Shown in pieces: positions 1 through 64,000 of a stretch of DNA of 64,000 nucleotides (its first letter is position 1; each line of letters starts with the position of its first letter). Below the pieces are notes generated by a model that did not search any database, had not been told where the DNA came from, and worked only from the letters and a program-made list of their open reading frames with translations. The DNA comes from Streptococcus anginosus (lineage in GTDB: Bacteria; Bacillota; Bacilli; Lactobacillales; Streptococcaceae). A program made the translations under genes and the position numbers. The stretch lies in NCBI RefSeq assembly GCF_001697145.1, contig NZ_CP012719.1:1584501-1648500 (forward strand), read 5' to 3'.

Positions 1-1363
1 TCAATGATTGCACGCGTTGAACTTTATTAGTCGCTGTTTGGTCAACTGGCATATCAATGTGGATTGGGAATTGAACGCCGTCTGCTTGAAGCGCCGCTTT
101 AGCTTTGGCTAATTTTTCCTTGGCTTTGGTTGGATTGTAAAGTCCGTCTTGCGCATCATTTAAGTTGACATCTTTCCAACTTTCATCGTAGCTGACTAAT
201 TTTTCTTTGACTAATTCTCCAAAGCTCTTGTCATCTGTTTGAACAAACGTTGGTGGTACAAAGAGGTTACGAAGCATCTTCGTTGCACCATCTTTACCAT
301 TTACTTGTGACGCATAAGCTGTGCGGTCAAATGCAAATGTAATGGCTTGACGGAAGTCTTTATTTAGCAAAGCTTTCTTAGTAGAAGTCTTTTGAGCATC
401 TGTTGTCTTTGAAGTATGTTTGTAAGATTGACGGTCAATGTTTGTAGCTACTAGGTAAGTCGTTGCATCTTGCGGAGTATAAACGATGTTATCTTTGTAT
501 TTCTTGCTGACAGAAGCATAACTTGGACTTGTTGGAAATACTTTGGCATTAGTAAATGAACCATCGCTAAATCCTTTAGCAAGTTTGTCCTGATCTTGAC
601 CATCATAGTAAGACAACTTGATGTTATCAATGTGCACATTTTTCTTATCCCAATAGTTTGGATTTTTCGCAAATTCGACAGATGATTTTGCTGTGATAGA
701 TTTTAGCAAGTATGGTCCATTATAAAGAAGACTAGATGGATCTGTTGCTTGTGCAAATTTATTGCCTTTTGATTTCAAAAATTCTGCATTAACTGGTGCT
801 AGAACACCCATTGTTGTTTTTGAGTTCCAAAAACTTTCTGGTCGATTAAGAGTGTATTGAACCGTGTAATCATCGACTGCTTTGATACCGACAGAAGAGA
901 AATCTTTATTTTCACCTTTCATGTAAGCATCCAAGCCTTTAACAGAATCTTGCACCAAGTAAATAGCATCAGATTTATTGTCTGCAGCATATTTTAAGCC
1001 CGTTACAAAGTCTTGTGCCTTAACCTCTGCATACTCTTCGCCTTCTGATGTGTACCATTTCACACCCTTACGAAGTGTATAAGTATAAGTCAAGCCATCT
1101 TTAGAGACGATCCAATCCTTCGCCACAGAAGGAACTAGATTTCCATAACGGTCATTTTCCAAAAGTCCGTCAATAACATTGCTGGTAAGATTTGCAGTAG
1201 CTGCTTTCCCAGTTGTCAAATAGTTCAAATTATCTGGATCTTGCTCATAAACATATGAGAATGTTTTGTTCCCTGAGCCTGTTTTAGAGCTAGAACAAGC
1301 TGCTAGGGTTCCTGTTGCAAGCAAGGCTAGCGCTGCTAGGGTAATGATTTTACTTTTCTTCAT
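1..1363 (-). CDS. Oligopeptide ABC transporter substrate-binding lipoprotein (Ali/Hpp type), 3' part outside window
   Basis: Extracellular peptide-binding lipoprotein of the SBP_bac_5 family that delivers oligopeptides to an Ami/Hpp-type ABC importer. The reading frame is open from the ATG at 1363 down to base 1 (454 codons) and continues outside the window. The N-terminus is a lipoprotein signal with lipobox LAAC, the lipidated Cys being residue 23. It is closely similar over its whole visible length to the next gene upstream (1560-3536), sharing for example LLENDRYGNLVPS and WYTSEGEEYAEVKAQDFVTG. The pair is therefore a tandem duplication that has since diverged, presumably in peptide preference. 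A terminator (1504-1550) separates the two, so this copy may be transcribed on its own. Which Ali/Hpp paralogue it is cannot be told. Confidence 0.93.
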   Translation of the reverse strand, partial: MKKSKIITLAALALLATGTLAACSSSKTGSGNKTFSYVYEQDPDNLNYLTTGKAATANLTSNVIDGLLENDRYGNLVPSVAKDWIVSKDGLTYTYTLRKGVKWYTSEGEEYAEVKAQDFVTGLKYAADNKSDAIYLVQDSVKGLDAYMKGENKDFSSVGIKAVDDYTVQYTLNRPESFWNSKTTMGVLAPVNAEFLKSKGNKFAQATDPSSLLYNGPYLLKSITAKSSVEFAKNPNYWDKKNVHIDNIKLSYYDGQDQDKLAKGFSDGSFTNAKVFPTSPSYASVSKKYKDNIVYTPQDATTYLVATNIDRQSYKHTSKTTDAQKTSTKKALLNKDFRQAITFAFDRTAYASQVNGKDGATKMLRNLFVPPTFVQTDDKSFGELVKEKLVSYDESWKDVNLNDAQDGLYNPTKAKEKLAKAKAALQADGVQFPIHIDMPVDQTATNKVQRVQSL

Positions 1364-1503
1364 GAATATTCCTCCCAAAATCATTATTTTTATACATTCT
1401 AGCACACAAAATATAAAAAGTAAATAGAATTTTCTAAATTTTATGACATATTTTTAAAACCTAGTATCAAAGGGATTATGTTAATCTTACAATTTTATAG
1501 ATA

Positions 1504-1550
1504 GAAAAAAGCAGATGAAACCCACTTTTAAGTGAGTTTCACCTGCTTTT
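1504..1550 (-). terminator. Terminator after the upstream peptide-binding lipoprotein gene
   Basis: Long inverted repeat. On the minus strand AAGCAGGTGAAACTCACTT pairs with AAGTGGGTTTCATCTGCTT, followed by a T run. It lies 10 bases past the stop of the gene at 1560-3536. Confidence 0.85.
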
Positions 1551-1559
1551 ATAAATGTA

Positions 1560-3536
1560 TTATTTTACATGATCAGCTAATTCATCTTGAGCTTTTTTAT
1601 TAGACTCGGCTTTTTCTTTTTGCCATTTCTTCTTAGCTGCTTCATAGTCTTTCTTAGTGACAGTATCGTTACCGACTTTAATGTATTTGAAGTAGGTTGA
1701 GCTACCTTTACTACCTGTTTGCGCAAATGCACCTGAGAACGGTTGAATGCGTGACACAAAAGTTCCGGCACCTGTTGAAGCCATTGTTGGTAAGACAAGT
1801 GAACTGTCTGTTAACCAAGCTTGTGCTGCTGCATATTTTTCATAACGTTTTGCAATGTCTGTTGTTTCTGCACCTGCTTCATCGACTAATTTATTATATT
1901 CGTCCAAGCCAACTGCTTTAGCACCAGCATTTTCACTACCAGAGTCAAATCCAAACCAAGTTTTCGTATTATCAGAAGATGTTGATTTCAAAATGTCAAG
2001 ATAAGTAGATGGGTCTTGATAGTCAGGAGTCCAACTAACGATACCTGAGAGATCCCAATCTTCGCTAGCTGCATTCGGAGCATAATAAGTGATGTTCATT
2101 ACATCATCTTCTGACATCATATTCAAGTCCATGACAACATTTTCTTTGCCAAGCACTTTTTCAATAGATTGTTTCATAGATTGCATACGAGCAACAAAGT
2201 TTTTAGAAGTTTCAATTACAGGAACATCTATGTGGATTGGGAATTGCACACCTTGAGCTTGCAATGCTTCTTTTGCTTTTGCAAATTTCGCTTTTGCTTT
2301 GTCTGGATTGTACAAACCGTTTTGTGAATCTGCTAATTTGACACCCTTCCAGTCATCACCATAGCTAGCTAATTTTTCTTCTACAACATCGCTAAATGAT
2401 TTTTCTCCAACTTGGACAAAGTCAGACGGTACAAACATATTGCGGATTGCTTTAGCAGCGCCCTCTTTACCATTGACTTGTGCAGCGTAAGAGTCGCGGT
2501 CAAGCGCAAAGTTCAGCGCTTGACGGAAGTCTTTATTCAACAATGCTTTTTTCGTTGAATTTTTTTCTTCATCTGTTTTTTTAGCAGTGTGGTTGTACGT
2601 TTGACGGTCAATATTAAGTCCTAAAACTGCTGTTCCTGCACCAGCTTCTGATGTATAGATATTGTCTTTGAAGTCCTTTTCAAAAGTTGAAAAGTTTGAA
2701 CTTGCTGGGAAGAGACGTGCATACGTATAAGCACCATCTTTAAAGTTACGTGCTAATGAATCTTGGTCTTGACCATCATAATAAGCCAACTTGATGCTAT
2801 CAACATTTACTTTATCTTTATCCCAATAATGTTTGTTTTTAACATATTCTACCGCAGATTTTGCTGTGATAGCTTTCATCAAGAATGGTCCATTATAAAG
2901 GATTGAGTTAGGGTCTGTTGATTGGCCAAATTTATTTCCTTTAGATTTCAAAAATTCGGCATTGATTGGCCACATAATGGCAGAGGTTGTCTTAGAATTC
3001 CAATATGGTTCTGGCTTGTTCAATGTATACTGAACAGTATAATCATCAACTGCTTTCACACCTACCGTTGAAAAGTCTTTTGTTTGACCATTCACGTAAG
3101 CATCTAAACCTTTAATTGAGTTTTGAACCAAATAAAGCGCCTCAGATTTTTTATCGGCAGCATGTTTCAAACCAGTTACAAAGTCTTGCGCTTTAACTTC
3201 TGCGTATTCTTCCCCTTCTGATGTGTACCATTTGGCACCCTTACGAAGTTTATAAGTATAGGTTAAACCATCTTTTGATACAGTCCATGACTTAGCCATT
3301 GATGGTACAAGATTTCCATATTTGTCATTTTCTAACAATCCGTCAACTCCATTTGTCACAAGATCGCTAGTGGTTGCTTTTCCTGATGTTACATAATCCA
3401 AAGTTTCTGGATCACTAGAATACACATAACCAAATTTTGTTTCAGCTGAGCTCGATTTCGAACCCGAGCAAGCAGCTAAAAGACCAGACGTTAAAAGAGC
3501 TAGCCCCGCAACTGCGATGATTTTACTTTTTTTCAT
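1560..3536 (-). CDS. Oligopeptide ABC transporter substrate-binding lipoprotein (Ali/Hpp type)
   Basis: Complete 658-residue peptide-binding lipoprotein of the SBP_bac_5 family, anchored outside the membrane. The signal peptide ends in LLAACSG with Cys23 as the lipidation site. The central and C-terminal parts carry the typical streptococcal Ali/Hpp sequence (GLLENDKYGNLVPSMAKSW, LNKDFRQALNFALDRDSY, WTPDYQDPSTYLDI). No permease or ATPase genes are adjacent, so it must feed an importer encoded elsewhere, as AliA and AliB do in pneumococcus. In such bacteria these proteins serve peptide nutrition and can influence competence and colonisation. It ends in its own strong terminator and is followed by a close paralogue. 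AliA, AliB and Hpp assignments cannot be separated by eye. Confidence 0.95.
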   Translation of the reverse strand: MKKSKIIAVAGLALLTSGLLAACSGSKSSSAETKFGYVYSSDPETLDYVTSGKATTSDLVTNGVDGLLENDKYGNLVPSMAKSWTVSKDGLTYTYKLRKGAKWYTSEGEEYAEVKAQDFVTGLKHAADKKSEALYLVQNSIKGLDAYVNGQTKDFSTVGVKAVDDYTVQYTLNKPEPYWNSKTTSAIMWPINAEFLKSKGNKFGQSTDPNSILYNGPFLMKAITAKSAVEYVKNKHYWDKDKVNVDSIKLAYYDGQDQDSLARNFKDGAYTYARLFPASSNFSTFEKDFKDNIYTSEAGAGTAVLGLNIDRQTYNHTAKKTDEEKNSTKKALLNKDFRQALNFALDRDSYAAQVNGKEGAAKAIRNMFVPSDFVQVGEKSFSDVVEEKLASYGDDWKGVKLADSQNGLYNPDKAKAKFAKAKEALQAQGVQFPIHIDVPVIETSKNFVARMQSMKQSIEKVLGKENVVMDLNMMSEDDVMNITYYAPNAASEDWDLSGIVSWTPDYQDPSTYLDILKSTSSDNTKTWFGFDSGSENAGAKAVGLDEYNKLVDEAGAETTDIAKRYEKYAAAQAWLTDSSLVLPTMASTGAGTFVSRIQPFSGAFAQTGSKGSSTYFKYIKVGNDTVTKKDYEAAKKKWQKEKAESNKKAQDELADHVK

Positions 3537-3700
3537 AGTTACCTCCGAAAAGTATGATATATTCTAATTATACTATATCTTCATAAAAAGTAAAGAATTT
3601 TCAAACAAATCTTTTACTAAAAAATGTGATTGTATTCCAAATGCTTTCAAACAACGGACTCACTTCTCGTATCCTATTGATGGATACATTGCTTTTTAGG

Positions 3701-4387
3701 TTATTTCCCCTCTGGGTGAATGACATACGTTTCAAAATCCAGATTCGGCATACATTCTGCTAAATTGTTCTCAATGCGCTTCAGTGCTTCTAAACGCATT
3801 TCAACAGATGTATGAGCATTTCCTTGAATGATAAAAATAGCATTCTTTGTCTCGTCATCAAATTTATAGTTTTCTCCGTCACGAACATCTAGCCATGCTA
3901 AAATTCCTTTTTGATCACGATAAACATAATCAGTCTGTGAAACGTGTTTTTCCGTAGATAAAATCGGTAGAAACACATCTTCTTTTTGACTAACCGTAAA
4001 TTCAATTTGCCCTGCTATTTTGTCCAAATCATGCCCACCGATGGCTAATAGAGAATGTAAAGATTCAACATTATAAATATCAATAATACTATTAATATGC
4101 GGAATAGAACCACGATGTCGAATATTCCGAATAAGCGCTAAAACAGTGGGAGGATTCTTCTTGACACTGCGACCAACACTTTGCAACAAATCTTTGTAGC
4201 CTTGAATGACTGCATCATCAGACACTTCATCCACATTGCATTTCAAGACCCACTTTTCCATTTCTTTTTGCTTTTCCAAAAATGAAGCGGATAAAGGCGT
4301 ATGTGGATCTACATTTTTGGCAATGCCAATTACCACATTTTTAATTCCAAGCGCTACGAGACTTTCATCAAGTATAAATTTTATCAT
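3701..4387 (-). CDS. B3/B4 tRNA-binding-domain protein
   Basis: A 228-residue stand-alone protein resembling the B3/B4 domain of the phenylalanyl-tRNA synthetase beta chain. The domain runs over roughly residues 65-225, with the family-like stretches RHRGSIPHINSIIDIYNVESL and LAWLDVRD. Stand-alone B3/B4 proteins are thought to bind or proofread aminoacyl-tRNA, but the substrate is not established. The gene lies between pyrG and the peptide-binding lipoprotein gene, all on the minus strand, with gaps of over 150 bases, so co-transcription is uncertain. A purine-rich ribosome-binding site (GGAGG) precedes the ATG. Confidence 0.75.
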   Translation of the reverse strand: MIKFILDESLVALGIKNVVIGIAKNVDPHTPLSASFLEKQKEMEKWVLKCNVDEVSDDAVIQGYKDLLQSVGRSVKKNPPTVLALIRNIRHRGSIPHINSIIDIYNVESLHSLLAIGGHDLDKIAGQIEFTVSQKEDVFLPILSTEKHVSQTDYVYRDQKGILAWLDVRDGENYKFDDETKNAIFIIQGNAHTSVEMRLEALKRIENNLAECMPNLDFETYVIHPEGK

Positions 4388-4555
4388 AGTCTACCTCCAA
4401 ATAATAATTTAGGGAATTGATTAACTATTAAATCCTTTGCAAAAAGTCTTATTTTATTGCTAAACTGCTGCTTTTTATGACAATCTAGTTGTAGCTTTCC
4501 TTTAAAAACTTGCACCAATTTGTTATACTGATAAGACTTTCTATTTATAAAAGAT

Positions 4556-4616
4556 ATTAAAAAGACTGGAATAGGCCCCAGATTGTGATACCAATCATGG
4601 AAGCCTGTCCCATTCT
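4556..4616 (-). terminator. Terminator of pyrG
   Basis: Minus-strand RNA just past the pyrG stop can fold GAATGGG with CCTATTC outside, and CCA-GATTG with CAATC-TGG inside. A T run (CTTTTTAAT) follows. Confidence 0.6.
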
Positions 4617-4617
4617 A

Positions 4618-6237
<1,620 letters not shown>

Positions 6238-13472: not shown

Positions 13473-15323
<1,851 letters not shown>

Positions 15324-49370: not shown

Positions 49371-51551
49371 CTAGTCTTGCGCCTTTTCTTCTTGAACAGC
49401 TTTATGCTCTTTATGTGTTTTATGATGATGTTTTTTTGCTTTCTCTTCTTTAGGAGGACGTGGTAGAAGAGCTTTCATAGAAGCGTCCACACGACCTTTT
49501 TCATCAATCTTAATAACTTTGACATCTACTTCATCACCAAGTTGCACCAAATCTTCAACCTTATTGGTACGCGTCCAAGCCATTTCAGAGATGTGCACCA
49601 AGGCGTCTGTCTTGTCAAAGAGATTGACAAAAGCACCGAATTTCTCAATCCGAACAACTTTTGCATGATACACTTCATCTACTTTTGCTTCACGCACAAG
49701 CGCTGTAATGATTTCTTTGGCACGGTTAATCGCATCTTGATCGCTAGAGTAAATAGAAACATTTCCTTCCTCGTCTATATCAATCTTGACACCTGTTTCT
49801 GCGATAATCTTGTCAATCGTTTCACCGCCCTTACCAATGACAATCTTAATCTTATCAACATCAATCTTAATGGTGTCAATCTTCGGAGCAGTTGGAGCGA
49901 GTTCTGTGCGAGGAGCTGGAATCGTACGTTCAATCAAATCTAAAATTTCAAAACGTGCTTTCTTAGCTTGAGCCAATGCTTCTTGCAAGATTTCAGCAGT
50001 AATTCCTTCAATCTTGATATCCATTTGAAGAGCAGTAATTCCTTCACGTGTACCGGCTACCTTGAAATCCATATCTCCGAAATGGTCTTCTAAGCCTTGA
50101 ATATCTGTTAAAATCGTGTAGTTGCTACCATCTGAAATGAGCCCCATAGCGATTCCGGCTACAGGTGCTTTAATTGGTACCCCACCGGCCATAAGAGCAA
50201 GTGTCCCAGCACAAATCGAGGCTTGTGAAGATGAACCATTTGACTCAAGAACTTCTGCTACCAAACGGATTGCATAAGGGAAATCCTCTAGACTAGGGAG
50301 AACTTGCGCAAGTGCACGTTCACCAAGAGCTCCATGACCGATTTCCCGACGACCAGGTGCTCCATAGCGTCCCGTTTCTCCTACAGAATATTGTGGGAAA
50401 TTATAATGATGCATAAAGCGTTTCTTGTATTCTGGATCAAGTCCGTCCACAATTTGCGTCTCACCCATTGGCGCCAAGGTCAAGACAGATAAAGCCTGCG
50501 TTTGCCCACGAGTAAAGAGACCAGAGCCATGCACTCGTGGCAGATAGTCAATTTCAGCATCCAATGGACGAATTTCATCTACCTTACGACCATCTGGACG
50601 AATCTTGTCCTCAGTAATTAAACGCCGTACTTCTGCATGCTCCATTTGCTCTAAAATTTCAGCCACATCACGCATGATGCGGTCAAATTCTTCGTGGTCA
50701 GCATATTTTTCTTCGTAAAGGGCTATTACTTCGTCTTTGACTGCTTGCGTTGCGGCTTCACGAGCTAATTTTTCTTCTACCTGAACGGCTTTTTGAAGAT
50801 CAGCATTATAGCCGGCTACAATTTCTGTTTGCAATTCTTCATCAACACGAAGAAGCTCAACTTCTGCTTTTTCTTTTCCAACTACTGCCACGATTTCTTC
50901 TTGGAAAGCAATCAATTCCTTCACTGCTTCATGACCTTTCAAAAGGGCTTCCAGCATCACTTCTTCTGATAATTCTTTGGCACCAGATTCCACCATGTTA
51001 ATCGCTTCTTTAGTTCCTGCAACGGTTAATTCCAATAACGAAGCTTCTTTTTGTTCTTGACTTGGATTGATGACCAATTCTCCATTGACATAGCCAACCT
51101 GCACACCAGCAATTGGACCATTAAAAGGAATATCTGAGATTGATAACGCAAGAGATGAACCAAACATAGCTGCCATAGGTGCTGAAGCATCCGCATCATA
51201 AGAAAGAACGGTATTGATAACCTGAACTTCATTGCGGAAACCTTCCGCAAACATGGGACGAATGGGACGGTCGATTAAGCGAGCGGTCAAAGTCGCATCC
51301 GTCGAAGGGCGTCCTTCGCGCTTGTTAAAGCCACCAGGGTATTTCCCAGCTGCGTACATCTTTTCTTCATAATTGACTTGAAGCGGGAAGAAATCGCCAG
51401 TCGCCATTTTCTTTGACATAACGGCTGCTGTCAGAACGGTACTTTCACCATAGCGCACCACTACGCTACCATTCGCTTGCTTCGCCACTTGTCCAGTTTC
51501 AACCACTAATTCTTTGCCAGCAAAAGTGGTTTTAAATATTTGTTTTACCAT
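49371..51551 (-). CDS. pnp: Polyribonucleotide nucleotidyltransferase
   Basis: 3'-5' phosphorolytic exoribonuclease, 726 residues. Two RNase PH domains (first about 10-220; second about 310-540 with [40 protein letters not shown]), a KH domain (about 555-610, [17 protein letters not shown]) and an S1 domain (about 622-690) are present. The His/Lys-rich tail [12 protein letters not shown] is typical of streptococci. It is followed by cysE 49 bases later. Confidence 0.98.
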
Positions 51552-55218: not shown

Positions 55219-55282
55219 TGATATGATACCTCTTAAGTAGACATGGTAAATAACCAAAATCTACTTAAGAGGTATCATATCA
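55219..55282. mobile_element. 64-bp palindromic mini-element related to the IS3-type end at 63386
   Basis: A perfect 23-bp inverted repeat starting TGATATGATACCTCTTAAGT encloses 18 bases. Its first 55 bases are the same as the left end of the IS3-family element at 63386-63440. It therefore looks like a non-autonomous element, or the joined ends of that IS with the middle deleted. Confidence 0.7.
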
Positions 55283-55310
55283 GCAGTCATCAAGGTGTTT
55301 TAAATTATGC

Positions 55311-56039
55311 TTACTTCCTTAACTCTCTGACAGTCAGACCAAAAAACAATATACTATAAATTGCATTAATTAAAACAAAAATAAGCAATTCCATCCATGA
55401 CATATCTGTTAAAGCACGACTACGTAAAGCAATCATAATCTGAGAATAGGGATAAAATCGGCTCAATCCCTCTCCTACAAACAAAAGAAGAAAACCGCCA
55501 ATGGAGCCAATAGCTGAAAAAGCGACAGATTTTGCAAAATTTCGAGTCTTTGATAGGATAAAAGCCTGTACCATCATTATACTGATAGAGCCTATCAAGG
55601 ATAAAAATACCCATTTGAGGTGAACAGCTATTTCTGGAATAACCTGTATCTGTTCAAAGCTCAGTGCTACGCTCCAGATAAGGACCAAAAGAAGTTGTAA
55701 GGGAACTGTTACGAATAATACTGTAAGAATCTTGCTTATTACCAATTTAGAAAGAGACACCTGATTGACACGCAACATTTCAAGAGTTGTCCGTTCAAAT
55801 TCTGGCATCATGCTAATCCCCATAAAAATCGCTAATAATGCTGGATAAAATATCTGGCTATTTAATAAGGTAAGCTGCCCCCACATGACCCAAGTCTGAG
55901 TTCCTTCCACAAATACAGAACGATTAAGAAAATAAGTGCTCAAGCCTATAAAACTAGATATACTCAACAGCAAGATTCCAATTCCAAGTAATTGCATTTT
56001 ATGTAACTTTCGCCACTCTGCAGATATATATCCTATCAT
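55311..56039 (-). CDS. ABC-2 type permease, lantibiotic-immunity type (second permease)
   Basis: A 242-residue membrane protein with six predicted segments (for example LLGIGILLLSISSFIGLSTY, YPALLAIFMGISMMPEFERT). The EFERTT motif after segment 2 is characteristic of LanE/LanG and BcrB-like permeases of peptide-antibiotic immunity transporters. It overlaps the preceding permease by 4 bases, indicating coupled translation. The regulator stump follows downstream. Confidence 0.8.
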   Translation of the reverse strand: MIGYISAEWRKLHKMQLLGIGILLLSISSFIGLSTYFLNRSVFVEGTQTWVMWGQLTLLNSQIFYPALLAIFMGISMMPEFERTTLEMLRVNQVSLSKLVISKILTVLFVTVPLQLLLVLIWSVALSFEQIQVIPEIAVHLKWVFLSLIGSISIMMVQAFILSKTRNFAKSVAFSAIGSIGGFLLLFVGEGLSRFYPYSQIMIALRSRALTDMSWMELLIFVLINAIYSILFFGLTVRELRK

Positions 56040-56782
56040 ATCATCATCCCCTTTCTACCTTGAATAGCCCCTCTAGCTAGTGCATAGACAAGTGTAGCAT
56101 AAAGTATGTAGATACCGATCTTTAATAAAAGCTGATTATCAAGTGTATAGACAGCAGTACTTGTAACAGAATTATAGCTAAACTTATAGGGAGCCAAAAA
56201 TCCTGTTCCCTCCCAAGGAAGTAAAAAGGCCCACCATTGATCTGTTCTCGCTTGAAAAATCATCCCGACAAAGGAACCAATAAACCCCATAGATAACACC
56301 AGCCCTTGCTTTTCATAGTACATCGCGATAGAAATGTAAAGACATATTTGAACAAAACTTGACAAGGAAAGTCTGAGTACCTGTAGTAATAACAACTGTA
56401 AAGAGACAGTCTGCCACTTAAACAAGCTTATATAAATTCCCAAAAGCCCTGTAAAGATAACTGCTAAGCCCATAAAGAATAGCGTTGAGAAGTAAAGTTT
56501 ATCATGAAAAATTCCACTCACTCCTCTGCCATTACTTGCTTGTAATTTAAAAGTCCGTCCTTCTTTCTCATTACTCACAATTCGCGAAGCAAATATACTA
56601 ATTGCCAGAGGTAAAACGAAGGTATAGATATCCTGATTACAGAAATAAAACGCTACCTCAGTTAGTTTTTCCTTTGAAACAAGAATAGTCCATAAAAATC
56701 CAAATCCAAGTATCGCAATCGCAATAGCGAAAGATTTTGTACGCTTCGATTTTAGAAGCTCAATTTGCAATGCTTTTACCAT
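56036..56782 (-). CDS. ABC-2 type permease, lantibiotic-immunity type (first permease)
   Basis: A 248-residue membrane protein with six predicted segments. SRIVSNEKEGRTFKLQASNG (about 66-85) corresponds to the E-rich motif after segment 2 in LanE/LanG permeases. It starts one base after the ATPase gene. It should pair with the other permease as a heteromeric channel that removes antimicrobial peptides from the membrane. Confidence 0.8.
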   Translation of the reverse strand: MVKALQIELLKSKRTKSFAIAIAILGFGFLWTILVSKEKLTEVAFYFCNQDIYTFVLPLAISIFASRIVSNEKEGRTFKLQASNGRGVSGIFHDKLYFSTLFFMGLAVIFTGLLGIYISLFKWQTVSLQLLLLQVLRLSLSSFVQICLYISIAMYYEKQGLVLSMGFIGSFVGMIFQARTDQWWAFLLPWEGTGFLAPYKFSYNSVTSTAVYTLDNQLLLKIGIYILYATLVYALARGAIQGRKGMMI

Positions 56783-56783
56783 A

Positions 56784-57692
56784 CTAGGCCTCCTTTGTTA
56801 ATGTTAGAAAAATATCTTCTAGACTTTCTTTTTCTCTGACAACCCTAAAGATTGGATATCCCGCTCTGACTAGTTCTTTCACGAGTAAAGCAATTCGATC
56901 ATCTGGTAGATTTTTTAGCTTCATTTGCCCATTTTTAACCTCAAGAATAGGTACTTTAGTCTGTTGATTCAAAAATTGAAGCATATTATGTTGTGAGAAG
57001 TCTCCACTAATTTCAATCCACATATTGGACTTTATCGTTTCAACATCTCCTTCATAGACGAGTTGCCCCCTGTTAATAATACCAACACGATCAGCTAAAT
57101 GTTCAATTTCTGATAAGATATGACTGGAGATAAATACAGTGATACCTTCCTCTTTAGCAAGTCGGATAATTAATTGACGAATTTCATGAATTCCCGCAGG
57201 ATCAAGTCCATTCGTTGGCTCATCTAATAACAAAATTTTAGGTTTCTTAACAAGAGCAAAACCCAAGGCTAATCGTTGTTTCATTCCCAAAGAATAGGCT
57301 TTAACTAATTTTTTCCTATTCTTTTCCTCAGCTAAGCCTACAAGCTCAAGTGTAGGCCAAATATTTCTTTTGTCAAAACCAATCATCTTTTGAAAAACTA
57401 AAAGATTTTCATACCCTGTCAAATTCGGATAATAAGATGGTTCCTCAATCATTGATCCAATGCTATTCAAATAGTCTGTTTTAGCTCTCACTGATTTGCC
57501 ATAAACTAAAATTTCCCCCGAAGTCGGTTGAATGAGAGATAAAATCATTTTCATCGTGGTCGTTTTTCCAGCGCCATTTGGGCCTAAAAAACCATAAATC
57601 TCTCCTTCCTTAACGGTTATTTTATCCAGACTAACTGTTTTGGCATCGCCATAAACTTTTGTAACTTGGTTTAACTCAATCACATTTCTCAT
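56784..57692 (-). CDS. ABC transporter ATP-binding protein, lantibiotic-immunity type (LanF/BcrA-like)
   Basis: A 302-residue ATPase. Walker A is GPNGAGKTTT (about 36-45), the signature is YSLGMKQRLALG (about 133-144), Walker B is ILLLDEPTNGLDP (about 153-165), and the switch His is in SSHILSEIEHLADRV. The E-loop of lantibiotic immunity ATPases replaces the usual Q-loop Gln: the sequence reads IGSMIEEPSYYPNLTGYENL, which has Glu in place of Gln. This places it in the LanFEG/BcrAB group rather than generic ABC exporters. The operon starts here, with three repeats in its promoter region. Confidence 0.85.
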   Translation of the reverse strand: MRNVIELNQVTKVYGDAKTVSLDKITVKEGEIYGFLGPNGAGKTTTMKMILSLIQPTSGEILVYGKSVRAKTDYLNSIGSMIEEPSYYPNLTGYENLLVFQKMIGFDKRNIWPTLELVGLAEEKNRKKLVKAYSLGMKQRLALGFALVKKPKILLLDEPTNGLDPAGIHEIRQLIIRLAKEEGITVFISSHILSEIEHLADRVGIINRGQLVYEGDVETIKSNMWIEISGDFSQHNMLQFLNQQTKVPILEVKNGQMKLKNLPDDRIALLVKELVRAGYPIFRVVREKESLEDIFLTLTKEA

Positions 57693-57734
57693 TTTCCTAC
57701 TCCTATCATTTTGATAACTTTAGTATAATACGGT

Positions 57735-57803
57735 CTTTTTATTCTTACCATAACTTAAGCTTACAAAAAGCCTTTTATTCTTACATTTTTGTAAGAATAA
57801 AAG
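57735..57803 (-). promoter_or_regulatory. Triple repeat in front of the immunity ABC operon, probable operator
   Basis: CTTTTTATTCTTAC (57735-57748), CTTTTATTCTTAC (57772-57784) and its inverse GTAAGAATAAAAG (57791-57803). The last two form a perfect 13-bp inverted repeat. A TATTAT -10 (57731 down to about 57726) lies just downstream on the minus strand, so the first copy covers the -35 region. It is a likely binding array for a response regulator or repressor of the operon. Confidence 0.6.
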
Positions 57804-57886
57804 ACCTAAATTTTCCAAACAAATTATTTAGAAAGTTCTTTCAAATATAGTACAACTGGAGTAGAAATTTCATTTGGAGGACTTTT

Positions 57887-58176
57887 ATGACAACCTTTCT
57901 TGGAAATCCTGTTACTTTTACAGGGAAGCAACCTCAAGTCGGTGACACTGCACCTGACTTTTCACTCACATCAACCGACCTCAGCAAAAAGACGCTGGCT
58001 GATTTCGCGGGCAAAAAGAAGGTGCTGAGCATCATTCCGTCCATTGATACAGACGTCTGCTCTACTCAAACCCGCCACTTCAACCAAGGACTGTCTGATT
58101 TGGACAATACAGTGGTTATCACCATTTCAGTTGATCTGCCTTTTGCCCAAGGAAAATGGTGCGCAGCTGAAGGAAA
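57887..58176 (+). pseudogene. tpx: Thiol peroxidase, truncated by a group II intron
   Basis: The first 95-97 residues of the atypical 2-Cys peroxiredoxin Tpx are intact: [20 protein letters not shown], the peroxidatic Cys in [19 protein letters not shown] (about residue 58) and the resolving Cys in [12 protein letters not shown] (about 92). Sequence then passes into the intron 3' end, which adds a false tail to 58249. The remaining 70 or so residues of Tpx, including the dimer and C-terminal helices, are not found on the other side. Tpx normally removes hydrogen peroxide and alkyl peroxides, important in peroxide-producing streptococci. Confidence 0.85.
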
Positions 58177-60033
58177 ATCGAGTAGGGGCTACTTTCGAGT
58201 CCCTCTCACACCACCGTACGTGCCGTTCGGCATACGGCGGTTCAATTAACTTTTAACGCATGTCGTTCTAAGTAGTAATCTAAGCAAGAAACCAGTCCGC
58301 GTTTAATGAGGACTGGTTTTGATATAGCTCGTTTTAGGACTGACTTTTGTGCCACCAACTGATAGTGGTCACCCCAGCCAGATACTTTATCTGCGATCCA
58401 CTTTGGTACGCCTAGTTTAAGAAGTCCCCAAAGTCGCTTAGATTTCTTCTTCCATTGTTTCCAGATGATAACTCTAATTCGTGTTCGCAAGCGTTCATCA
58501 ATGCTTTCCATAACAGATTTCATGTTTGTCATGGAGAAATAGTTTATCCAGCCTCGGATAAGCCAGTTGAGTTTCTCAATACGGCTATCCAAGTCAATAC
58601 TCCATTTCCGTATGGTCAATTGCTTAAGCTTTCTCTTGAAATTCTGTATACTGTCTTGATGCGGGCGACTTTTCCAACCTTCAGATGACTTCCAGAAGCC
58701 AAAGCCAAGATACTTCAACTTACTTGGTCTCACAATCTTGGTCTTAGTCATATTGACTTTCAGTCCGAGACGTTTTTCAATGAAGCGACTAACTGAATAC
58801 ATAACACGTTTAGCTGCCGCCTCACTCCCAACAGTTATGACACAATCATCTGCGTAACGAACAAAGTGTAGTCCTCTACTTTCCAATTCCTTGTCCAGCT
58901 CATTAAGCATGATATTAGATAGGAGTGGAGATAGATTTCCTCCCTGTGGTGTTCCTACTAACGTTCTATGTCGTTGTCCGTTGATGACTACGCCCGAATG
59001 AAGATACTTGCGAATCAGAGATTCGGTATCACCATCTTGAATAATGTTATGGACAAGTGACATCAGCCTATCTTGAGGAACTGTATCGAAAAATTTCTCA
59101 AGGTCTATATCCACAATCCACTCATAGCCATCGTTAAGGTACTCCAATAACTTGATGATGGCTTTTTCGCATGACCGATTGGGTCGGAAACCATAACTCG
59201 TTTCAGAGAAGTGAGGTTCACAGAGAGGACTGATAATCTGAACAATTGCCTGTTGAACCATTCTGTCCATGACAGTTGGAATACCGAGCTGACGGACTCC
59301 CCCATTAGGTTTCGGAATTTCTACTCGTAAAACTGGCTGAGGTTTGTATTTCCTCTGTTTTATCAGTTCCTTGGTTGGTCGCCAATATTGGCGAAGGTAG
59401 TTGTCTATCTCTTCAACAGTAATGCCATCAATTCCAGCTGAGCCTTTATTGGCTTTCACTTGGTTATAGGCTTCTAACATATTCTCACGAGATAGAATGT
59501 TATCTAGTAGTTCTGACATGTGTGTATTCCTTTCTTGTTTCGGTGTCTGAGGACATCTTATATTAGTGAACTTTCCTCTAGTCAATACGTGACCGCATCC
59601 AGTTCTATCAGACTATTCGTTTTACAGACACGTGTGAAGTAGGTATACTTCGGTTAATTGTTCGACCCTTCGCTCCACTTCTATTACAGAAGTTTCATCA
59701 CTACTATGGTCTCGGCTGACTTCTCATGATTCGTTGTTACTACGTCTTTGACGCTCATGAGACCTCACGGGATAAGTCGTACATCTTTCCTCGTTTACTC
59801 TCGTGATTTACGCACATAGGTTACGACTACCTTTTTGGACTTTAGGGTTTCAAGCCCCCTCTTCCCCTATATACGCCTTGTTATCACGTTTCTGTTCGTA
59901 GAGCCACGATTTCGCTATCCCTTCCTCTCCTTGCTACCTCGCGATAGTCAGGCTTGGGAGTCGCTATTGGGTTCACCGGTAGCGGGTGCCCGCGGAGGAC
60001 TTTCACCTCAGATGTACGACATGCCCGTCGTAC
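58177..60033 (-). mobile_element. Group II intron, bacterial class C type
   Basis: Minus-strand intron of about 1.86 kb. The 5' end lies near 60033 (GTACGACGGGCATGTCGTAC then ATCTGAGGTGAAAGTCCTC). The maturase is in domain IV. The domain V-like CCGTATGCCGAACGGCACGT, ACGG is at about 58212-58240, and the 3' end near 58177 reads CCCCTACTCGAT. Its 5' exon is a terminator hairpin, typical of class C introns; its 3' exon is the interior of tpx. The exact ends are estimated. Confidence 0.85.
58242..59519 (-). CDS. Group II intron reverse transcriptase/maturase
   Basis: A 425-residue LtrA-like intron protein from the ATG at 59519, which has AAAGGA eight bases upstream (the frame is open to 59585). 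RT domains 1-7 are complete: [21 protein letters not shown]-like [62 protein letters not shown], the active site YADD in [10 protein letters not shown] (about 238-241). The maturase domain X follows, with [11 protein letters not shown]. No HNH endonuclease domain is present, as in class C. Confidence 0.95.
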
Positions 60034-60036
60034 TTT

Positions 60037-60065
60037 AAAACAGAGTAGAATGAAATTCTACTCTG
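60037..60065 (-). terminator. Terminator hairpin at the intron 5' exon
   Basis: CAGAGTAGAAT (60041-60051) pairs with ATTCTACTCTG (60055-60065). On the minus strand it is followed by TTTTAAA and then the intron. The IS1182-type element starts at the very next base on the other side. Confidence 0.75.
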
Positions 60066-61602
60066 CAGATTGAAGACAAAGTCCTAGAAATTCACTTTTC
60101 TAAGGACTTTTCTGTTTATCTAGAGTTATAATAAAGGTAAGGTATTCTGGGAGGTATTGCTATGTTCCACAAAGAAAATCCTGACTATAATCGAAATCAA
60201 GTCGGGTTCTACAGCCTAGATGAGTTGGTTCCTAAAGATCATCTCTTACGTCAAATGGATCGTGCAGTTGATTTCTCATTTATTTATCAATTGGTTGAAA
60301 ACAGTTATTGTGCGGATAAGGGGCGTCCTAGCTTAGACCCAGTCATGTTAGTCAAAATTCCAATGATTCAATGTCTCTTTGGTATTCGTTCCATGCGTCA
60401 AACCATCAAAGAAATTGAAGTCAATGTGGCTTACCGCTGGTTTCTTGGGTTAACTTTAGAAGATAAGGTGCCTCATTTCACAACATACGGCAAGAACTAC
60501 AGTCGTCGTTTCCAGGATAAACAAGTCATTGAAGCAATTTTTGCTCATATCTTAGGGCTCTGCCTCAATGCTGGTTTGATTGACCCCACTGAAATCTTTG
60601 TGGATGGGACTCATATCAAGGCAGCAGCGAACAATCACAAATACATCAATCAAGAAGTTGATGCGCAAGCTAAATTTATGAGTGACCAATTGGAAAAAGA
60701 AATTGCCAAAGACAGGGACAAACAGGGAAAAAAGTCGCTAGGGCTCGCCAAAGAAAAAGAGCCCATCAGTAAGAAAATCTCTCCAACCGCCCCAGATAGT
60801 GGCTGGTTTCATAAGGGTGACCATAAAGAGGTTTTTGCTTACAATGCTCAAGTAGCTTGCCATAAACATGGCTGGGCACTAGGCTATAGTATCCACGCTA
60901 GGAATATCCATGATAGTCAGGCATTTCCTGAACTCTTTGACAAGATTAAAGCATTGAATCCTCACTATCTTATCGCTGATTCTGGCTATAAAACCCCAAG
61001 CATCGCTCCTTACTTCTTAACACTAGGTGTCATACCCGTTTTTCCTTATACAAGACCTCGTAATAAAAAAGACATGCTTCGGCCAAAAGAATTTATGTAT
61101 GATGAGTACTATGATGTTTACCTCTGTCCAGAAAATCACCCCTTATCCTATTCAACGACTACTCGAGACGGCTATCGTGAGTATAAAAGTAATCCAGCTG
61201 TATGCCAGTATTGTCCCTTATTATCGGTTTGTACCCAATCAAAAAATCATCAAAAAGTAATCACTCGTCATCTATGGAAAGATGATTTAGAGGTTTGTGA
61301 AGACATCCGACACCAAAGAGAGATGAAGGAACGCTATCAACAGCGCAAAGAAACCATTGAGCACTTGTTTGGAACAGCTAAAGAATATCCCAACTTACGT
61401 TATACGAGACTAAAAGGAAAGTCCAAAATGGAGGCAACCCTTGGGCTTACTTTAGCGTGCTTGAATATGAAAAAATATAGTAAGATAATGGCTGGAATAG
61501 TCTTTTTATTTTGCATAAAAGTAATCCTATCAAGACCAATTGTGATAACAATAGTAAAAGAAAAGACAAACTGGATTAAAATTCCAGTTTGTCTTCAATC
61601 TG
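60066..61602 (+). mobile_element. IS1182-family insertion sequence, copy A
   Basis: Terminal inverted repeats CAGATTGAAGACAAA at 60066-60080 and 61588-61602. It abuts the terminator hairpin on the left and lies 4 bases from the next element on the right. Confidence 0.85.
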
Positions 61603-61607
61603 AATAG
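60162..61607 (+). CDS. IS1182-family transposase A
   Basis: A 481-residue DDE transposase. The N-terminal domain (NQVGFYSLDELVPKDHLLRQ) precedes the first Asp in IFVDGTHIKAAANNHK, the second in LIADSGYKTPSI, the Cys motif CQYCPLLSVC and the Glu in RKETIEHLFGTAKEYPNLRY. The stop codon (61605-61607) falls just outside the inverted repeat, so the tail is partly supplied by flanking DNA. It appears intact. Confidence 0.92.
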   Translation: MFHKENPDYNRNQVGFYSLDELVPKDHLLRQMDRAVDFSFIYQLVENSYCADKGRPSLDPVMLVKIPMIQCLFGIRSMRQTIKEIEVNVAYRWFLGLTLEDKVPHFTTYGKNYSRRFQDKQVIEAIFAHILGLCLNAGLIDPTEIFVDGTHIKAAANNHKYINQEVDAQAKFMSDQLEKEIAKDRDKQGKKSLGLAKEKEPISKKISPTAPDSGWFHKGDHKEVFAYNAQVACHKHGWALGYSIHARNIHDSQAFPELFDKIKALNPHYLIADSGYKTPSIAPYFLTLGVIPVFPYTRPRNKKDMLRPKEFMYDEYYDVYLCPENHPLSYSTTTRDGYREYKSNPAVCQYCPLLSVCTQSKNHQKVITRHLWKDDLEVCEDIRHQREMKERYQQRKETIEHLFGTAKEYPNLRYTRLKGKSKMEATLGLTLACLNMKKYSKIMAGIVFLFCIKVILSRPIVITIVKEKTNWIKIPVCLQSE

Positions 61608-63320
61608 TCTGAGACAAAATAGTTCTCAGTCACAAAAAAGCTAGAGATTCCCAATTATGGAACTCTAACTTTTTAAGTTTGAGTCGTTCTCTTATTGTAT
61701 TTAAGGAGATTATTGGCCATGAGCACTAAACCCATGTCAATTTTCACCTGACGCTTGCCTCTTAGGTTACATCTCTTGTAACCCAAATAAGCCTTTATCT
61801 GCCCAAAGACGGGTTCCACATCAATCTTACGTTGAGCGAAAATCTGTCTACCTTCGGGAGATAAAAGCGCTTGGCATTCTTTAGCTTTTAAGTGTTGATA
61901 ACGTTCGTTGATATATAGTCCCTTTTGAGGGGCTGATTTAGGTTCATCAGCGTAGTAAACCTTGATTTCCTGTTGAAAGTCCGCCTGTGTTTTCTGATGT
62001 TTGATATGATGAAAACGATAGCACCACCCGTCAGGATGAGTGTAGCTATCCTCCTTGTCATCATAGTACCAATTCGCTAAGTTTCTAGCCGACTGTTTAT
62101 ACCCTTTCTTCTGTTCCTGATCAAACATGGCATATTTAATCAGGTGGTTCACCTCCTTTTCATCTAAACGAAGGAGGTTCTCTTCACTTCCATATCCAGC
62201 ATCTGCGACAACGGTCTTCAAGTCATGCGGATAGGTTTCAAGGAATGGCAGAAGAGTCTTGGTGTCTGTCGGATTTGAAAAGACATCATAATGAAGAACA
62301 AATTGATTTTCAGTAGCGATTTGAAGATTGTAAGCAGCCTTGAGTTGACCACTCTTCATGTGGTCTTCTTTCATCCGCATAAAAGTGGCATCTGTATCTG
62401 TTTTGGAAAAGCTGTTACGCCCTTCAAATGTCTCTTGGTAGCCTTCATATTTTTCAGCACGTACTGAAAAATCATCCTTGACTTTACGCAAGACTTTCTT
62501 GAGTTTCCGACGTTGGGTTTTACGTTCGTCCTTCCCTTTAACGGGGGTCTCCTCAATGTCTTGGTTCAGTTTTTCCAATTCTTCTTCGAGGACTTGAGCG
62601 AATTCAATCAACTGCTCTGAAGCAATCGGTTCTTCTTCGTCCAGCCTAATGGCCTGATGGATAAGGGGTGTGATTTCTTCTTGAAAATAGACCTGTATCT
62701 GTTCTTGAAGTTTGAGGGAAAACTTGTCCGTTGCCTTTTTCCACACGAAACTATACTTGTTGGCGTTGGCTTCAATCTTAGTGCCATCAATAAACAGACA
62801 ATCTAAAGTCACTAACTCTTCTAATTTCAAACGAAGATTGAGGTCAATGAAAAGATCACGAATGAGCTCTTCCATTCCTTCAGCGACTCGAAATCGATTG
62901 ATGGTGCGATAGCTGACAACCAACTGTCCTGTTAGGTACTGCATAGCCAGATTTTCAATCATCATTTTTTCGATTTTTCGTCCAGAGAAAATCCCTTGCG
63001 AGTAGGCAAATAGTAGAGCGGCTAAAAGCATTTTAGGGTGATAAGACGGGCGACCGAAGTTATGATAGAAAGCGTGGAAGTGACTATACTCCAAGGCATT
63101 CACCACTTTTTCAATGGTAAAGACAAGATGGTCTTGTGGTAAAATGCAAGCAAGTTCTAGTGGTAAAGTCGTTTGATTTGTGTTATAGTGAATATGCATG
63201 GGATAGCCTTTCTAAATGGTTTATTGAGCAATTCTATTTTAGCAAGGCTATCGTAACCATGCAAAAAGCAACGGCAAATCCGTTGCTTTTTTTTGTAGCA
63301 AAGGGACTATTGTCCCAGAC
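61607..63320 (-). mobile_element. IS1182-family insertion sequence, copy B
   Basis: Ends share GTCTGAGACAAAATAGT (61607 on) and, in inverse at 63320, GTCTGGGACAATAGTCCC. Each end can also fold on itself (GAGAC...TCTC, GGGAC...GTCCC). The end nearest 63250-63290 also has a GCAACGG...CCGTTGC terminator hairpin. Confidence 0.7.
61673..63199 (-). CDS. IS1182-family transposase B
   Basis: A 508-residue transposase of the other IS1182 branch, with DUF772 N-terminal domain (GRPSYHPKMLLAALLFAYSQ), first Asp in CLFIDGTKIEANANKYSFVW, second in VVADAGYGSEENLL and Glu in RKIDVEPVFGQIKAYLGYKR. Full length with no frameshift, so likely functional. Its sequence is only distantly related to copy A, so these are two independent insertions. 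Confidence 0.92.
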   Translation of the reverse strand: MHIHYNTNQTTLPLELACILPQDHLVFTIEKVVNALEYSHFHAFYHNFGRPSYHPKMLLAALLFAYSQGIFSGRKIEKMMIENLAMQYLTGQLVVSYRTINRFRVAEGMEELIRDLFIDLNLRLKLEELVTLDCLFIDGTKIEANANKYSFVWKKATDKFSLKLQEQIQVYFQEEITPLIHQAIRLDEEEPIASEQLIEFAQVLEEELEKLNQDIEETPVKGKDERKTQRRKLKKVLRKVKDDFSVRAEKYEGYQETFEGRNSFSKTDTDATFMRMKEDHMKSGQLKAAYNLQIATENQFVLHYDVFSNPTDTKTLLPFLETYPHDLKTVVADAGYGSEENLLRLDEKEVNHLIKYAMFDQEQKKGYKQSARNLANWYYDDKEDSYTHPDGWCYRFHHIKHQKTQADFQQEIKVYYADEPKSAPQKGLYINERYQHLKAKECQALLSPEGRQIFAQRKIDVEPVFGQIKAYLGYKRCNLRGKRQVKIDMGLVLMANNLLKYNKRTTQT

Positions 63321-63385
63321 TCTTTTTTTATGTGACTTTAGTCCGTCTCGCTTCGAAGGTGCGAGACAAATAAACCACCCGCTAT
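63321..63385. other. Short gap between copy B and the IS3-type element
   Basis: 65 bases. CGTCTCGCTTC...GTGCGAGACAAAT is a small hairpin; otherwise nothing recognisable. Probably the last bit of the DNA that was here before the insertions. Confidence 0.4.
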
Positions 63386-64000
63386 TGATATGATACCTCT
63401 TAAGTAGACATGGTAAATAACCAAAATCTACTTAAGAGGTATTTTTATGTCTAGAAGAGAAAAATTCACCCCATACGAGAAAGAACAAGCTTGTCTTGAT
63501 TATATTAATGGTAATCGTTCTAGGTCCGAAATATGTAACTGTCTTCATATTTCCACAAGGACGATTCAAGATTGGGCTGCTATTTATAAAAAATATGGGA
63601 TTTTAGGATTGACAAAGAAAACAAAAAATCGTTCCTATTCAAAAGAATTTAAAATGGAACTTGTTAGAAAATATATTAGTGGTGAGGCTTCATCTGTTGA
63701 TTTAGCTCATCAATATGATATTTCTTCAGGGCTTTTACGAAATTGGATTAGGATGTATAATGCCAATATAGAACTTAAGGATTACAATCCAAAACAGGAG
63801 GTCTATATGGCAAAAGCAAGACGTAAAACCACTATTTGATGAACGCAAAGAGATTGTCGACTATTGTATTGAACACAATCGCAATTATAAGGAAACAGCG
63901 GCACTTTATAATGTTTCTTATAGCCAAGTATACTCGTGGATGAAGAAGTATGATAGTGATGGTGACGAAGGATTAATTGATAAAAGAGGTCGTCACAAAC
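63386..64000 (+). mobile_element. IS3-family (IS150-type) element, left end only
   Basis: Starts with TGATATGATACCTCTTAAGT. A hairpin in front of the first gene (63394-63441) may block read-through transcription. Its first gene follows and the element continues beyond the window. Confidence 0.75.
63447..64000 (+). pseudogene. IS3-family OrfA (helix-turn-helix transposase subunit), frameshifted, 3' part outside window
   Basis: The first frame (63447-63839, 130 residues) carries two HTH units (YEKEQACLDYINGNRSRSEI, CNCLHISTRTIQDWAAIYKK; YSKEFKMELVRKYISGEASS). An extra T in ACTATTTGATGAA near 63834 gives a stop. Removing it restores a third HTH (DERKEIVDYCIEHNRNYKET, AALYNVSYSQVYSWMKKYDS) and GLIDKRGRHK to the window end. 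It may be a natural mutation or a programmed slippage site. Confidence 0.7.

Follow-up and report, generated by a model that had tools for sequence, protein, structure and literature searches.

Class C group II introns are described as targeting terminators in PMC4424553, and in PMC2828477 both S. mitis copies of the S.m.I1/S.p.I1-type intron are placed between genes. The intron described here lies in a 64,000-nucleotide stretch of Streptococcus anginosus DNA, called the window below, and it is of the same class C kind as these streptococcal introns; it differs in its 3′ exon, which is a foreign stump of the thiol peroxidase gene tpx three bases off, a comparison of placement and not of the letters of S.p.I1. 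Class C introns take a terminator as 5′ exon and are not exacting about the 3′ exon, so finding one next to a convergent gene is nothing unusual; it is the truncation of tpx that calls for a further event. The group II intron on plasmid pGB2002 of S. agalactiae (NC_015971.1) shows 81% identity along the full length of the intron and has the same intron ends; it adjoins another terminator, has another 3′ exon and is plasmid-borne.

The IS1182 family is described as targeting hairpins or terminators, with partial deletion of the hairpin reported for TnSha1/IS1272, in PMC4923244. TnSha1/IS1272 and the first of two IS1182-family elements in the window are alike in being members of the family at a terminator hairpin, whereas TnSha1/IS1272 is reported to delete its hairpin in part and the streptococcal copies like our element carry the same hairpin (21–27 bp) on both sides in seven of the ten cases with both flanks visible, the other three being L193, L197 and the window copy itself.

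As a class, IS-bounded composite transposons resemble this locus in being flanked by the ends of the same IS and in having a short target repeat; the left end here differs in being a 64-bp palindrome of an IS end, with no full IS. All parts of the locus are of known kinds and the whole is an ordinary mobile-element patchwork, with one loose end, the near-exact meeting of the intron edge and tpx. We consider it highly probable that the truncated tpx is a passenger of S. massiliensis type in a tpx-less lineage, carried inside an IS3-bounded insert of 9,962 bp, and that its contact with the intron came about by a deletion or join. The stump would then be a horizontally acquired scrap and not the mark of a recent loss of peroxide defence.

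The tpx stump and its probable donor

The open reading frame at 57887–58249 (+ strand) is listed with a translation of 120 residues. The stump itself, tpx′, occupies 57887–58173 (+, 287 bases) and accounts for residues 1–96 of Tpx (NCBIfam NF001808 at 148.8 bits, where the cut-off is 123; top PDB match 1psq), while the C-terminal 24 residues of the frame are antisense intron sequence in translation. Cysteines 58 and 92, the redox cysteines of this atypical 2-Cys peroxiredoxin, are both retained before the frame runs into the 3′ end of the intron at 58177, just as the original prediction had described. Residues 97–163 are missing from what would be a complete Tpx of ~163 residues, and it is very unlikely that the stump yields a functional enzyme. 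In the alignment, identity to the intact tpx of S. massiliensis stops at 58173, and the three bases that follow (AAA on the + strand, 58174–58176) belong neither to that gene nor to the intron.

The segment from 55282 to 58173, which holds an ABC-transporter operon and the 5′ part of tpx, shows 10 mismatches in 2892 bases to Streptococcus massiliensis DSM 18628 (L038, NZ_KB904386.1). The tpx of DSM 18628 is intact (163 aa); it is also the only locus with 100% amino-acid identity for Tpx among the best 80 of 323 relatives, the others reaching at most 94%. In that genome psaBCA is followed by the ABC transporter, which lies on the opposite strand, and then by tpx; the names of these genes are our own reading. 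A native psaBCA is also present in the window genome (C1:265619–268136), 74% identical to that of S. massiliensis; its pepO is 69% identical, and the long stretches of genes flanking the locus are 67–79% identical, with an exception of 376 bases around rpsO at 87%. Set against the 67–79% of the longer host stretches, the near-identity of the 2.9-kb segment marks it as foreign to this genome, and because tpx is intact in S. massiliensis, the transfer would have run from an S. massiliensis-like donor to the window genome.

The remainder of tpx is indeed absent on the far side of the intron, as originally stated, and a search of the 2,001,352-base genome with the 163-residue Tpx (E up to 0.01) led to one place only, residues 1–98; the 3′ part was not found. 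A Redoxin family search of the same genome gave four places, namely tpx′, AhpC (TIGR03137 above cut-off) and two more, which we read as one TlpA-like protein encoded next to MsrAB and one thioredoxin. In the genus, sampled as one genome per species, Tpx was matched in 250 of 284 Streptococcus genomes, counting the window genome and three weak matches (G101, G021, and G190; E 2e-4 to 7e-4). The nearest genomes by the psaBCA–mntR region are G281 and G061 (95%), G074 (92%), and G120 (91%), with the next at 76%, and none of these four has a Tpx match in the 284-genome search (G061, G074, and G120 are listed without one, and G281 is not among the matched genomes). The gap between psaA and mntR measures 156 bases in the window genome, and over this stretch all four relatives align in one piece of nearly equal length (G120 from query base 114). 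The lack of a Tpx match in the four closest relatives and their shared psaA–mntR arrangement argue that the host did not lose a tpx of its own. We infer that tpx was absent from the host lineage before the insert arrived; the strain lacks a whole tpx, but would do so by lineage, the loss of a resident gene not being supported.

At species level, a Tpx match is absent from 34 of the 284 Streptococcus genomes (E up to 0.001), the four nearest relatives of the strain included. A literature search linking thiol peroxidase and tpx with Streptococcus anginosus found nothing, and in the one paper retrieved for horizontal gene transfer with S. massiliensis and S. anginosus, S. massiliensis is named a single time, among the references, and neither thiol peroxidase nor tpx is mentioned.

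The IS-bounded insert

The insert begins at 55219, runs to the end of the window at 64000 and on to window-equivalent 65180 (G000:C1:1649680), and has ATA on either side: the window reads CACCCGCATA, then 9,962 bases, then ATAGCAAGTGG. At the empty site G120 reads CACCCGCATAGCAAGTGG, with ATA once, and G074 reads CACCCGCATAATAAGTGG, in which two bases differ at the point itself (AT for GC). The match of G074 to L159, a locus that starts at window position 50001 and reaches 4 kb beyond the window end, covers 1–5218 and is followed within two bases by a match to 15186–15290. These two genomes constitute the empty-site evidence, from which G281 and G061, whose matches to the left and right sides are not continuous, were left out.

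The insert starts with TGATATGATACC and finishes with CATATCA; these are the termini of a single IS3-family element, here called IS-A. On the right the boundary is formed by IS-A itself (63386–64000 and, beyond the window, to 65180; + strand, ~1.8 kb), whose second ORF matches NF033516 above cut-off in a frame that stops short of the end of the IS3 profile. On the left lies the 64-bp palindrome of the left IS-A end (55219–55282), which overlaps the beginning of the S. massiliensis match by a single base. The insert has the IS ends on both sides and the target repeat that characterize a composite transposon. The inner, left flank of the right-hand IS-A resembles the inverted native right flank (83% over 69 nt), which makes recombination between IS copies no less possible than composite transposition. 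For IS-A in the relatives, 40 of 89–146 candidates were scored per genome. A second copy of the whole insert was not seen.

The palindrome at 55219–55282 may be a miniature element. A dispersed repeat (CACCCGCTAT / ATAGC...) is found at 63323–63385 and at window-equivalent 65181–65248, with pieces in G074, G120, G061, and G281, and is a candidate target for IS-A.

The intron, its hairpin and the IS1182-family elements

The class C group II intron is full-length (58177–60033, − strand, 1857 nt, GTACGACGGG...CTACTCGAT); its ends were placed with the help of streptococcal homologues, with which they agree. Rfam models RF02001 (111.3 bits), RF01998 (44.9 bits), and RF00029 (45.7 bits) match it, all above the gathering score and with D5 included. 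Within it, an open frame at 58242–59585 (−) encodes the reverse transcriptase/maturase (TIGR04416, 425.1 bits against a cut-off of 300; RVT_1 and GIIM above cut-off), and no HNH endonuclease domain occurs among its Pfam matches at E up to 0.001. The window genome has one full copy of the intron, and the intron query gave two short extra matches, one at the start of an IS1182-family copy and the other a 112-base intron-like piece. A 77% intron is held by G074 at another place.

The 5′ exon of the intron proved to be a terminator hairpin (60041–60065), as had been predicted, followed by TTTTAAA on the intron's strand, and the same hairpin borders an IS1182-family element on its left side. Folding of the 45-nt exon gave −15.3 kcal/mol, a value inside the range of 10 distinct homologue exons (−10.6 to −19.7), and the intron sits just after the terminator hairpin in the manner of class C. 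Allowing up to 3 mismatches, the hairpin occurs in one of the 284 Streptococcus genomes, that of the window. As the terminator of tpx itself the hairpin is disfavoured: a loose search of all collected loci (up to 3 errors) matched loci of this place only, apart from three poor matches in L131, L152, and L117. In DSM 18628, other DNA is met within 30 bases of the tpx stop and the donor's terminator is not visible whole there.

Two IS1182-family elements follow, both matching NF033551 above cut-off: no. 1 at 60066–61602 (+), with a second copy in the genome near C1:1829420, and no. 2 at 61602–63329 (−). The latter is 96–97% identical to at least 14 copies in G074 and 87–90% identical to pieces in S. 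massiliensis, and its closer match to the G074 copies makes it probable that it was acquired within the host's group. A search of S. massiliensis DSM 18628 found neither the intron nor element no. 1, with 27/27 candidates scored for each of the two handles of that genome. For elements like no. 1, 22 left flanks were fetched (L188 and L202 show an identical flank), and 21 of them fold at −7.7 kcal/mol or below with a stem ending at most 2 bases from the element, the exception being L199 (−5.9); random 32-mers of the same loci served as control, their median being −2.5 and their 5% point −7.1. Two terminator-seeking elements, the class C intron and the IS1182-family element, meet at one hairpin in IS-bounded cargo.

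The terminator-like hairpin stands complete on both sides of seven of the ten streptococcal IS1182-family copies with both flanks visible, an observation that concerns 60066–61602, L119, L183–L187, and L189.

The junction of tpx with the intron, and the cargo

In the reading that we prefer, the donor segment would have begun at the psaA terminator, included the ABC transporter and ended within tpx; it would have become flanked by IS ends, and would then have moved as a composite-transposon-like unit or recombined in via IS copies. The class C intron would have inserted beside the terminator hairpin, as is usual for the class, and the IS1182-family element at the same hairpin; a deletion or non-homologous join, before or after the intron's arrival, would have set the 3′ exon of the intron against tpx codon 96. 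Some points sit less comfortably with this reading: a mere three bases separate the tpx edge from the intron, a spacing that a random break would seldom leave; the contact of tpx′ with the intron was seen in no other genome searched, so that the donor-side arrangement was not observed; the rpsO stretch reaches 87%; and recombination between IS copies fits as well as one transposition.

That a resident tpx was instead destroyed in place, by a deletion from the intron into the gene, would agree with finding no other tpx in a genome whose genus mostly has Tpx (250/284), but we regard it as most improbable, as it is contradicted already by the site without insert in two relatives, and the segment is near-identical to S. 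massiliensis, against 67–79% for the longer host stretches, and Tpx is unmatched in all four of the closest relatives. The same observations speak against a loss of Tpx in this host. The original prediction also held that a deletion or recombination at the intron joined it to tpx; some deletion or join is indeed implied, whereas what was cut would not be a resident tpx. An error of assembly joining unrelated pieces at the intron is scarcely credible: none of the other genomes searched has this junction, and multi-copy IS elements adjoin, yet the genome is a single contig with one full intron copy, so that there is no second intron to misjoin, and the insert shows a clean 3-bp repeat. A 403-residue tpx reading in S. 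gordonii DD07 (L041) crosses a scaffold gap of N and is not a fusion.

The near-exact contact would be accounted for if the intron had inserted antisense into tpx, at TTTTCGA/T, and had later had its 5′ exon swapped via an intron copy at the terminator. The intron edge is at most 3 bases from tpx, and the antisense of S. massiliensis tpx reads TTTTCGA/T at this point, T being the first base of the 3′ exon in most homologues. In a target matrix built from 12 homologue sites this position scores 2.0 (rank 18/478) and the one a base earlier 3.1 (rank 14/478), both near the 3.4 of the window's real exon, the extra offset slightly favouring insertion. We nonetheless hold such an insertion to be unlikely. 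Both offsets fall under all 12 building sites (5.0–10.1), and since the real exon scores only 3.4, the matrix discriminates poorly and the fold test is clearer: the 45 nt of antisense tpx before the junction form no hairpin and fold at −6.5 kcal/mol (rank 352/448; tpx median −8.4), against −10.6 to −19.7 for the 10 real exons. A 61-nt stretch at the tpx site gave −12.3 kcal/mol, a single value without control. Moreover, the 3′ exon is TTT where tpx has TG, and neither a second full intron nor the 3′ part of tpx, which had been named as the pair to look for side by side, was found in the genome. Along the intron, the nearest of nine homologues alternates several times between L009-like copies and L010, with L173 nearest for the last 57 nt; this gives no single switch point of the kind that recombination between introns would leave, in a comparison of low power. 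The earlier statement that this is no simple insertion of the intron into tpx is borne out by the terminator 5′ exon and by a tpx site with no hairpin and a low target score. A version in which the intron captured a foreign gene, its 3′ end reverse-spliced into tpx, its 5′ side completed at the terminator and the donor DNA welded to the IS cluster before all moved as a unit, is highly unlikely. The three orphan bases, together with the lack of a hairpin and the poor target score at the tpx site, make a deletion or a non-homologous join close to the 3′ side of the intron our preferred reading.

The cargo most likely to matter may be the three-gene ABC transporter (55311–57692, −) rather than tpx. 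It consists of an ATPase of 302 residues and two further ORFs of 248 and 242 residues; its best NCBIfam matches are lantibiotic-protection models, below their cut-offs, and the third ORF matches none. In S. massiliensis, the imported transporter sits between psaA and tpx. The S. massiliensis-type DNA begins inside the apparent psaA terminator hairpin, adjoining the 64-bp palindrome.
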